Source: Aurelia coerulea
Lineage: Eukaryota; Cnidaria; Scyphozoa; Semaeostomeae; Ulmaridae
Length of the DNA stretch: 64,000 bases
Reading direction: 5' to 3'
Assembly (NCBI GenBank): GCA_039566865.1
Contig: CM076943.1
Location: forward strand, 34,976,663 to 35,040,662
Shown here: positions 8,676 through 16,672 of the stretch, piece after piece
How positions within the stretch are numbered: the first letter of the stretch is position 1
Layout: each line of letters starts with the position of its first letter
The notes under the pieces: generated by a model
Database searches by the model: none
The model's input: only the letters and a program-made list of their open reading frames with translations
What the model was told of the DNA's origin: nothing
Translations under genes and position numbers: made by a program

Positions 8676-8688
8676 GATAATAATAATG

Positions 8689-8730
<42 letters not shown>

Positions 8731-8742
8731 GTAATAATAATG

Positions 8743-8778
<36 letters not shown>
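8676..8778. repeat. (AAT)n microsatellite
   Basis: About 100 bases of AAT units with a few TGA interruptions. It is the first of a chain of such arrays down to 16.7 kb. Confidence 0.95.
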
Positions 8779-8828
8779 TACAAACTTTGGTAGTCTTAAT
8801 TAGTGGCTTGAAGTAGCTTTTATAAAAG

Positions 8829-8900
<72 letters not shown>

Positions 8901-8901
8901 T
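8829..8901. repeat. (AAT)n microsatellite
   Basis: An uninterrupted AAT array that directly abuts the 3' end of the next Penelope copy (8905). Confidence 0.95.
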
Positions 8902-8904
8902 GAA

Positions 8905-8959
8905 AAACAAAACTGTTAAAAGCAAAACGTTTCGATTATAAAATCTTCATCAGTTGTTT
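8905..8959 (-). ncRNA. Hammerhead-like motif at Penelope 3' end
   Basis: On the minus strand: AAACAA (stem I), CTGATGA, A, GATT-TTAT-AATC (stem II), GAAA, then ACGTT pairing with AAC-a-GT (stem III with one bulge), T, and TTGTTT, which closes stem I as the exact complement of AAACAA. All three stems and both core boxes are present. The cleavage position would be a U, which is weaker than C. It is followed directly by the TTA array. Confidence 0.65.
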
Positions 8960-9363
8960 ACAACCACAGGACAGCCAAGTATTTATAGGACAAAATAACA
9001 TTTACATAAAATCGTGATAAAATCCCCCCGAGGCCCCCCTTAAAAACAATGCCAAACAACACACCTAGACTATTTCAAGTTTTCTTAGCCAGCCAAAACT
9101 TCCAATTCAAATAAAAGTTCATAGAAAATTCCCTAATCCTTTAGTTCTCGACATCGGAATGGAAGCTCTGCGTATATAAAGTCTCAAGCAAACGAAGAAG
9201 CACGCCTCCCAACGACCCTCCTGGGATTTGCTTAAATTGCTAAATCCCTAGATGGCAAGACAGGGAATTCCACCCTGACACCACGTGCACACTGACACGA
9301 AATACGAAAGGAAGCATGCCCCCAAGATAAAGCCTAAGACTTATTCAAATGGAATGACTGTAT
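8960..9363 (-). other. 3' untranslated part of Penelope copy 2
   Basis: No open frame. It lies between the GIY-YIG fragment (9364-9857) and the hammerhead motif (8905-8959), so on the minus strand it is the 3' untranslated region of that element. Confidence 0.55.
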
Positions 9364-9857
9364 TCAGGCGACCCCACAGGCGAACATATCCAATTCAACA
9401 TCAGCCGCTCTTTCATTAAGACCGTTGGGTGCAAAGGTTCCCAATTTGTATTGCCAAAATAATTCTTTTCTACGAAGTGAGTAAACATCTGAAGCCCCAT
9501 CAATGATTGTTATGCTGACCGAAAAAGCACCCTGATGGCCTTCACTAAAAAAATGCCCAAAGAAACCCGCCTGTGGTACCGCCTTACCCCTATCAAGACT
9601 GCCATCATTGTATTTACGTGCATATGTTCGAAAATATGATTTGTACACATTAAATCTTTGCCGAAATTTGGTTTTTGTGCTGCCCACATATTTTTTATTG
9701 CAGCAATCACATTGCAACAAGTAGACTACATTCTCCGAGTTGCAATGATAAGCACCAGAGGAGATCGTAAAGCGTCGAGAGTCATTAAAATTTCGAAATG
9801 TCTCCCCTTCAACAATGAGTGCACAAATTTGACAGCTTCTCCTGCCATTACATTTGA
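9364..9857 (-). pseudogene. Penelope-like GIY-YIG endonuclease fragment
   Basis: Only the C-terminal nuclease region of a second Penelope family is left: C-QIC, VVYLLQCDCC, KYVGST-TKFRQRF, a GHFFSEGH block and LRRKELFWQYKLGT before the C-terminus. The first residues of the open frame are tyrosines encoded by the adjacent TAT array, so the copy is truncated directly at the microsatellite and has no reverse transcriptase. Sequence differs clearly from the Penelope element at 6.7-8.3 kb, so it is another subfamily. No internal stop is present in what remains. Confidence 0.85.
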
Positions 9858-9858
9858 A

Positions 9859-9878
9859 ATAATAATAATAATAATATA
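9859..9878. repeat. Short (AAT)n array
   Basis: Six AAT units between the 5' truncation of one Penelope fragment and the 3' end of the next. Confidence 0.85.
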
Positions 9879-14099: not shown

Positions 14100-14114
14100 A
14101 TAATAATAATAATT

Positions 14115-14148
<34 letters not shown>

Positions 14149-14192
14149 GTAATAATAACAAAGATAATGATAATAATAATGATAATGATAAT
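14100..14192. repeat. (AAT)n microsatellite
   Basis: AT-rich array of AAT units with GAT variants. It separates LINE C2 copy b from LINE C1 copy b. Confidence 0.9.
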
Positions 14193-14337
14193 GGAAACTT
14201 TCATCCTCATAAATAAAGCTTACAATCAGATAAAGAATTAAAATGTAAAATCTACAGTACAAAGAATATATGTGACTAGCACTCTCCATAAAAGGGCATG
14301 TTAGTCAGTCTTACTGCCTTCAACAGTCTTTACTTCT

Positions 14338-14977
14338 TTAAAATGTTAAAAGGTCTGGATTGGTCCAGTCTTTGTCTTTCCTACAAAATAAGTAATATGT
14401 TGTCCTTATGCAAATGTTTATTATCTTTCTAACAATGTTTTTTGACGCAAGTTCCGAAAGTCCGATGCTCTTTAATGCTTGCAGTATGCCATTTCCGTCG
14501 TCATCCCTGCATATCAATCCTAGGGCGCTCATGCTCAGGTTCACAAATGTTACTTTCTCATACTTTTCATTGAGATCAAGGATAGTAGAGTTGTATTTTC
14601 TTATCTTCCTTGCACAATTCTCTTTCACGTTGGTGACAAAACCGCAGGTTAATTCTAGAACGATTATGACCTTCTCTTGATAGACTATGATGATATCTGG
14701 TCGCTTTAATGTTCCTGTGACAACTGTGGGGCAGGGGTAGCCTGGAATATCAGCAAAAACTTTCAAGTCCCTCAGGCCATCAATGCTACTCAATAGAGTC
14801 GCAAGAATGGAGTTATGCCTCCACGTGTATCTGCCTTGTTGAAGATGAACTTTGCAACCCGAAACAACGTGCAAAAGGGATTGACTATTTTCCTTACATG
14901 CAAGGCATGTGTCCATGGTTGCTCTTCCCCACAGGACCATATTCTTTAATGTAGCTAAGGTATTATTCATGTATCTG

Positions 14978-14978
<1 letters not shown>
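14338..14978 (-). pseudogene. LINE C1 endonuclease fragment (copy b)
   Basis: About 210 codons of the C1 C-terminal region: zinc knuckle CLAC-LLHVVSGC, YTWRHNSIL, nuclease core LKRPDIIIV then IIVLELTCGF, and the end TYYLFCRKD-NPDLLTF, which matches TYYIFCKRD-SPELLTF of copy a. No stop lies within this part. It is truncated upstream of the knuckle at an AAT array (14980) and its untranslated 3' part ends at another. Confidence 0.8.

Positions 14979-14979
<1 letters not shown>

Positions 14980-15047
<68 letters not shown>
14980..15047. repeat. (AAT)n microsatellite between head-to-head LINEs
   Basis: An uninterrupted AAT array of about 68 bases. LINE C1 copy b leaves it on the minus strand and LINE C2 copy c leaves it on the plus strand, so both truncated 5' ends share one array. 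Confidence 0.95.
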
Positions 15048-15048
<1 letters not shown>

Positions 15049-16536
15049 TTTGTCTTGAGTATGATTCCACTGTCGTTAGTGCTCAGAAAGGTCAATGCAT
15101 GTGATGAATGGGGAAAGAGAGAGTACAAATTAAATCATCTTCTGTTCATGGATGATCTAAAGCTGTTTGGTAAGAATGAAGAACAGATAGATTCACTTGT
15201 GAACACGGTTCACGTCTTCAGTACAGATATTGGGATGGAGTTTGGTCTTAGAAAGTGTGGTGTTCTTACCTTGAAGAGAGGAAAAATAGCTAGATGTGAG
15301 GGGATAGAACTTCCGAATGGCGAAGTAATGAAGGAGGTGGAAAAGGAAGGGTACACATATCTGGGGATAGTTGAGCTGGATAAGATCAAAGAAAATGAGA
15401 TGAAAGAGAAAATCACAAGGGAATACAAGAGAAGGCTCAGGCTGATTCTTAAATCAAAGTTGCATGGCAGAAACAAAATTACAGCGATGAACACATGGGC
15501 AGTAGCTATCTTCAGATATAGGGCTGGAATCCTGGACTGGAAAGGAAGTGAACTGCAAAGTTTAGACAGAACAACAAGAAAGACGATGACAATGTATGGT
15601 GCGTTTCATCCTAAGAGTGATGTGGACAGACTGTACTTGAAGAGGCATGAAGGAGGCAGAGGTTTGATAGGCATAGAACATTTTGTTAGAGGAGAGGAAA
15701 ATAGCTTAGGCTTGTATGTATTGAATTCTGCAGAAAAGTTAATTCAGGGGGTTTGTACATCAAGGACGATTGAGACAGAAAGTACCATCAGTAAGAGTGA
15801 ATTCAAACGAAAGAAGGCTCAGAAGCTTAAAGACAAGTGGAAGGGGAAGAGGATATATGGACAGTTCATCAGGGAAATGCCGGCGTTGTTGTGTGCTGCA
15901 CAGGAACAGGCGATCAGAACAAATTATGTAAAACTCCACATTGATAAGAGTATTGGCAATCCTCTTTGTAGGATGTGTGGAAAGAAAGAAGAAAGTGTGC
16001 AACACATAATAAGTGAATGTGGAAAATTAGCTCAGAAAGAATACAAGAGACGCCATGATAATGTAGCAAAGAAAGTTCATTGGGAACTGTGCAAGAAAAA
16101 TGCATTAGAACATAAGGAAAGATGGTATGAACATGACCCAGAAGGAGCGGTAGAGAATGAACGTGTAAAATTGTTGTGGGATATAAATATACAATGCGAT
16201 AATGTGATAGAGGCTAGGAGGCCAGACATTGTTATAGTTGATAAAAAGGAAAAAAGCTGTGTAATTGTGGATCTTGCAGTACCCGCCGATGGAAGAGTAC
16301 ACGAAAAGGAAAGGGAAAAGGTGAAGGAATACCAGGACTTGCGAAGGGAAATTGGAAGACTGTGGCAATTGAGAAAGGTGCAGGTTGTTCCTGTGGTTGT
16401 AGGTGCCCTTGGGAGTGTAACAAAAGAGTTTGACAGGTGGATTGAGAAGTTGGGGATACCGGGTGATGTCGGTGCTGCACAAAAGACTGCCTTGTTAGGA
16501 ACTGTAAGGATCTTGAGGAAAGTGCTAGCGATCTAA
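15048..16536 (+). CDS. LINE C2: RT palm to restriction-like endonuclease (copy c, 5'-truncated)
   Basis: The frame is open for about 496 codons. It begins inside the reverse transcriptase just before the catalytic FMDDLKLFG (codons 38-46), continues through GMEFGLRKCGVL and GYTYLGI, then GGRGLIGIE, the zinc knuckle CRMC-SVQHIISEC (near 307-325), KRRHDNVA (near 335), and the nuclease core RRPDIVIVD then CVIVDLAVP (near 390-408). The C-terminus is VVGALGSVTKE and RILRKVLA. The ATG at the edge comes from the microsatellite junction, so the start is artificial. R4/Dong-like LINEs are known to insert into TAA repeats, which matches the AAT arrays on both sides; the clade is an inference. It is a long open remnant without fingers and the first RT motifs. 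Confidence 0.85.
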
Positions 16537-16637
16537 GAGAGAGATTTCCTGTTAGCCCTTGGTCATTTGTTGTGACCCGCCTAACAGGACGAATGACGGC
16601 AATTCCAACAGCCAGAGCGTAAGCTAAAAACAATGAC

Positions 16638-16672
16638 AATAATAATAATAATAATGATAATGATAATAATAA
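16638..16672. repeat. Short (AAT)n array at LINE C2 3' end
   Basis: AAT and GAT units right after the 3' untranslated region of C2 copy c. It closes the microsatellite chain. Confidence 0.9.

Follow-up and report, generated by a model that had tools for sequence, protein, structure and literature searches.

AAT arrays as a probable common landing site for LINE and Penelope retroelements in Aurelia coerulea

UnaL2 is a long interspersed nuclear element (LINE) that ends in a TGTAA simple repeat. The I element is described as ending in TAA repeats (PMC3747384), LINEs encoding a restriction-like endonuclease (RLE) are described with microsatellite targets (Dong, some HERO families, and Togen at (TG)n; PMC4640811, PMC3774820), Penelope elements are reported to prefer simple AT-rich targets (PMC3846280, PMC3124438), and a Penelope protein from Anolis cleaves an ATT motif on both strands in vitro, with reverse transcription beginning inside the RNA (PMC11167929). 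Here we describe a colony of retroelements in Aurelia coerulea, at 8.65–16.7 kb of a 64,000-nt window (positions 34,976,663–35,040,662 of contig CM076943.1), in which seven retroelement pieces and two short pieces resembling a putative LINE that we call X lie end to end in AAT arrays. Junctions of the same families were sampled from the same 574-Mb assembly. Our reading, to which we give a probability of roughly 0.7, is that RLE LINEs and Penelope elements land in the same AAT arrays, for which tailed LINEs are probably a frequent source, and that colonies arise by repeated insertion; the window's cluster seems to be one instance of something that happens more widely in this genome.

The window holds many retroelement reading frames. 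The seven fragments and their AAT arrays, which had been described in a first-pass annotation made from the sequence alone, are borne out at this place (Table 1), and two X-like 3′ ends, at approximately 8,650–8,676 and at 8,778–8,828, had been overlooked. Within the window AAT arrays of at least four perfect units are confined to 8,685–16,655, plus a single 15-bp ATT site (27,267–27,281). The background was taken from the window minus the colony, together with L001–L008 (L numbers are our handles for sampled sequences), where a three-unit AAT/ATT array begins within 20 nt of 139 of 86,023 positions (0.16%), and judged against this figure the colony arrays are more than chance would give.

Genome searches with C1, C2c, PLE-a, X and a control LINE (F) each scored roughly the top 40 candidates, and young copies therefore dominate the samples. 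For C1 there were at least 42 matches, mostly 98–100% identical (best 40 of 94 candidates); 30 were read as loci and the other ends as 351-base pieces, six being repeated with longer flanks. The 37 rows with a 3′ end, minus two re-fetched copies (L039 = L010 and L041 = L013), gave 35 ends, the window copy included; L027, L029, L032, L034 and a diverged match at contig C3:16,973,157 yielded no 3′ end. All 35 run into ATT (34 directly and the diverged L037 after one A) and none into AAT, and at least four perfect units lie within 30 nt in 30 of them (the exceptions are L012, L023, L026, L033 and L054). At the 5′ boundary four or more perfect units lie within 30 nt in 29 of the 34 readable cases, all in the same sense; L034, L037 and L063 have an imperfect array, L025 and L055 look like internal breaks, and L030, which reads N at this boundary, falls outside the 34. 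In the longest copy (L039, 3,530 bp with the start point set by hand) the array lies about 20 nt before the assumed start. Some 3′ arrays are interrupted early (after one unit in L018 and L023 and after six in L011), as would be expected if the array predated the insertion. C1 thus shares the AAT niche at both of its ends, as the first-pass annotation had proposed; that this should be a surprise is less convincing, because C1 has RLE residues (see below) and so belongs to a LINE type known to use microsatellites. A repeat end of an unnamed kind also borders AAT/ATT arrays at L012 and L029, and by eye at L099.

The Penelope-like PLE-a gave at least 47 matches (best 40 of 1,415 candidates), and reading covered the 3′ end of each of the 40 long non-window matches, an array being defined as at least three units within 20 nt. 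Arrays are present at 37 of the 40, 22 as ATT and 15 as AAT, so that sharing of the niche by Penelope is upheld, and in both orientations; the exceptions are L093, L123 and L114, the last having an imperfect ATT/ATA array. The 40 ends are not fully independent because the neighbours L116 and L122 face one array. PLE-a has two discrete 3′ ends about 40 nt apart (22 short and 18 long), each found in both orientations, and with few exceptions each end type keeps one phase; given the two orientations, a single templated tail does not fit as the source of the array. These junctions agree with the in vitro work on the Anolis element and with the reported AT-rich preference. LINE F (window 58,537–62,151, with PHD, Exo_endo_phos and reverse transcriptase (RT) domains) was the sole control family and gave at least 47 matches (best 40 of 295 candidates), of which 35 outside the window reach the 3′ border of the query and 20 were fetched. 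None of these 20 3′ ends has a three-unit AAT/ATT array within 180 bp, and they show their own AAATC-type tail. The original proposal would have failed had C1 or Penelope been flanked by AAT no more often than other LINEs such as B or F; the samples gave 35/35 and 37/40 versus 0/20 for F and so did not refute it.

The window copy of PLE-a is truncated and has no RT, and its match to the GIY-YIG profile is weak (18.8 bits, family cut-off 22.6). Window 6052–8537 is occupied by a further Penelope-like element that matches both RT and GIY-YIG and has no adjoining AAT array of four or more units; its part at 6,695–8,338 clears the GIY-YIG cut-off, and its 3′ part is repeated in inverse orientation at 6052–6695 (644 bp, 99.8% identity). 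Inverted close pairs of PLE-a, within a few kb, were seen at contigs C4:22.97 Mb, C7:7.08 and 9.69 Mb, C10:20.97 Mb and C17:10.46 and 10.76 Mb, and at window 57312–57390 a Penelope 3′ motif is followed by an apparent decayed AAT stretch. A hammerhead ribozyme in the Penelope 3′ ends is not claimed, as only a core-like motif was found and there was no Rfam hammerhead match up to E=1. The one Rfam match in window 8,500–17,000 (CrcZ, E=0.55) was dismissed as chance.

C2, which had been put forward as the best-fitting family, provides weaker evidence than C1 and PLE-a. The C2c search gave at least 72 matches (best 40 of 378 candidates), and 20 of the 36 non-window matches that extend to the 3′ border of the query were fetched. 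Nineteen of these enter an AAT array in the sense of the element, perfect or interrupted as judged by eye, and L080 does not. At the 5′ boundaries, which were read on partial matches, five of 12 have an AAT array no more than 6 nt away (L170, L171, L173, L174 and L175), so that C2c was not retained as the clearest array-user, and the statement that every end adjoins AAT holds for the colony pieces and fails beyond the window at these boundaries. Because arrays are found at 19/20 3′ ends but at only 5/12 5′ boundaries, the array may be the element's own tail; either C2c uses the other strand from C1 or it carries a tail of this kind, and both may be true. Within the pairs L068/L069 and L174/L175 both copies have one and the same flank, a sign that parts of the assembly may be duplicated. 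A weak likeness to the C2c C-terminus (35% over 68 amino acids) was noted at window 57900–58100.

Comparison of the LINE pieces showed that the division into three C2 and two C1 pieces needs correction. The piece at 12,360–14,087 (C2b) is only 22% identical in amino acids to C1a (over 175 residues) and likewise 22% to C2c (over 103), and is a family of its own; C1a and C1b (over 213 residues) and C2a and C2c (over 68) are each 46% identical and are taken as related yet separate. A CCHC-like knuckle, an RH(D/N) box and an R/KPD..D/E motif, which we take to be the marks of an RLE, were aligned by eye in C1 (copy L041), C1b, C2c and C2b, and from the presence of these residues all four are predicted to carry an RLE. 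The best match among solved structures was an R2 protein, both for C1 (copy L041, E=1.2e-31) and for P0001, a 92% relative that stood in for C2c (E=3.8e-27). Named relatives of C1 and C2c occur in the cnidarians Paramuricea clavata and Rhopilema esculentum. C1 has the array at its junctions that is a trait of Dong, and a common target is not by itself proof of R4/Dong membership.

A likely source of the arrays is X, a repeat 3′ end first seen across the array from C1 in L017/L044, where C1 lies in the tail of X. Its putative RT remnant of 142 amino acids has no Pfam RT match and is 24% identical to LINE F over 140 amino acids (E 1e-10 in a comparison of nine proteins). At least 41 matches, nearly all 98–99% identical, were found (best 40 of 706 candidates), and 20 of the 38 further matches up to the query end were fetched. 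All 20 end in AAT in one orientation, with a few to about 20 units and often with slippage-like flaws, and beyond the arrays lies mostly unrelated non-array DNA as judged by eye. The array of X is more readily taken for a tail than for a target, and the idea that X itself sits in arrays of both orientations was abandoned. Among the PLE-a flanks, the last 35 nt are array-free in 29 of 40; X or an X-like end was found in six of these (L091, L098, L101, L106, L107 and L110), another Penelope end in four and C1 in one, the last two by eye. A core-pattern search of the sampled sequences, with the coding matches L002 and L003 set aside and re-fetched loci skipped, found arrays at 13 of 14 X-like ends, in a sample biased to C1 and PLE-a sites. 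The left edge of the colony is itself an X-like end followed by AAT, and on this sequence resemblance the opening array is probably the tail of an X-like LINE; X is a likely seeder of arrays. The 15-bp ATT array mentioned above, which alone reaches four units in the rest of the window, sits at a minus-strand X-like 3′ end (window 27267–27320).

Taken together, these junctions suggest how a colony might be built. Some arrays, probably including the first in the colony, would go back to an (AAT)n tail that a dispersed LINE, either X itself or something related to it, had left behind. As C1 is found in arrays with a fixed strand, we infer that it nicks the AAT strand within the array and primes reverse transcription there, so that its sense strand reads into ATT. 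PLE-a would enter AAT arrays on either strand, with reverse transcription beginning at one of two fixed sites near the 3′ end of its RNA, and C2-type LINEs would use the opposite strand or bring an AAT tail with them, if not both. Because target remains on both sides of an insertion within an array, colonies would grow through repeated insertion. The proposed strand rules fit the orientations in Table 1, though PLE-a can use either strand. The earlier idea of one growing array is plausible, though the opening array may be an X-like tail. We regard as an even bet the fuller picture of an ecology on one microsatellite, in which X and its relatives keep seeding dispersed (AAT)n, two unrelated integration machineries, strand-specific RLE LINEs and strand-blind GIY-YIG Penelope elements, colonise it, the LINE families split the strands between them, and colonies grow of themselves because each insertion leaves target on both sides.

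Several observations weigh against a shared landing site seeded by X. Beside C1, another colony element lies within 250 bp at 17 of 30 loci (13 without calls that rest on C2c only, which are possibly spurious), compared with 150 of 612 when the distal parts of these loci are cut into overlapping 250-bp windows; this is only a moderate excess, since the colony families are common, and a strong enrichment of mixed colonies beside C1 was given up. Six of the 12 C2c 5′ boundaries have no array nearby (one of these, L165, may not be a true end because another C2 match lies just upstream), in L168 the array is 42 nt off, and L174 and L175, both counted as positive, have one flank. The view of X as tailed rests on one orientation and array-free flanks, read at 3′ ends only, and C2c is one-oriented too; the arrays of the X-like relatives are eight ATT and five AAT, and so not of one orientation. 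The 5′ ends of PLE-a were read at the window copy only, and among the colony families the genome mapping covered C1, C2c and PLE-a.

Two other explanations have to be set beside a shared landing site. It could be that the elements make the arrays, each ending in an (AAT)n or (ATT)n that it carries or generates itself as a 3′ tail, and that chains form because such tails are common, with no targeting. X shows an apparent tail of this kind in 20/20 copies, the C2c counts (19/20 against 5/12) point the same way, and every C1 3′ end has the same orientation; yet C1 also has arrays at 29/34 5′ boundaries, its 3′ arrays in L018 and L023 are broken after a single unit, and the PLE-a arrays come in both orientations, so that as a general explanation this is unlikely. 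The endonucleases might instead favour any AT-rich DNA, AAT arrays being simply the longest AT-rich tracts of the genome, and both the reported AT-rich preference of Penelope elements (PMC3846280, PMC3124438) and the two AT-rich PLE-a exceptions, L114 and L123, are consistent with this. A loose preference of that kind sits poorly with the one phase and one orientation of C1 at 35/35 ends and with the fixed phase within each PLE-a end type in nearly all rows (the scoring covered AAT/ATT arrays only), and we consider it less probable still, though for PLE-a it keeps some likelihood.

Table 1. Features of the colony, in window coordinates
Feature	Position	Strand	Basis or remark
X-like LINE 3′ end; AAT tail opens colony	8650..8676 (start approximate)	+	resembles X-like end in L098; family by short similarity only
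AAT array	8677..8777		
Second short X-like piece, arrays on both flanks	8778..8828	+	same sequence past array in L106
AAT array	8829..8900		
PLE-a, Penelope-like 3′ piece, short-type 3′ end	8901..9857	-	weak GIY-YIG match, E=0.0021, under family cut-off
AAT array, 18 bp	9858..9875		
PLE-b, second Penelope-like 3′ piece	9876..10112	-	3′ motif
AAT array	10113..10217		
C2a, 3′ piece of C2c-related LINE	10218..10584	+	46% amino acid identity over 68 residues to C2c
AAT array	10585..10707		
C1a, RLE LINE, very young, 5′-truncated	10708..12262	-	endonuclease residues; best PDB matches are R2 proteins
AAT array	12263..12359		
C2b, separate RLE LINE family, broken reading frame	12360..14087	-	amino acid comparison and endonuclease-motif alignment
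AAT array, partly decayed	14088..14192		
C1b, LINE piece, C1-related family	14193..14978	-	46% amino acid identity over 213 residues to C1a
AAT array	14979..15047		
C2c, LINE piece: part of RT, zinc knuckle, RLE	15048..16637	+	
AAT array, colony right edge	16638..16672		

As regards significance, the cluster becomes a countable system, with two endonuclease types on one simple repeat and with strand, phase and priming site readable from the junctions. Should X be the seeder, the habitat of some retroelements would be the product of another, and replication slippage would not be the sole cause of AAT microsatellites in such genomes. That RLE LINEs occur in microsatellites and that Penelope prefers AT is already known from the sources cited; X, a young putative LINE ending in (AAT)n, is new, and among the open-access titles and abstracts listed we found none in which AAT arrays are shared by Penelope elements and RLE LINEs. 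Like Dong, HERO and Togen, the C1/C2-type pieces have an RT, a zinc knuckle, a predicted RLE and an array at the junction; unlike them, they use a single repeat that C1 enters on one strand and C2c on the other, and share it with Penelope elements. PLE-a, putatively of the RT/GIY-YIG kind of Penelope, has junctions that agree with the behaviour of the Anolis element (AT-rich target, ATT on both strands and an internal start in vitro; PMC11167929), and differs from known Penelope elements in that 37/40 sampled copies sit at one microsatellite and in its two discrete 3′ ends at the junctions. The short AAT tail of X resembles the TAA repeats at the end of the I element, and unlike those of the I element and UnaL2 the tails of X serve C1 and PLE-a as landing sites.

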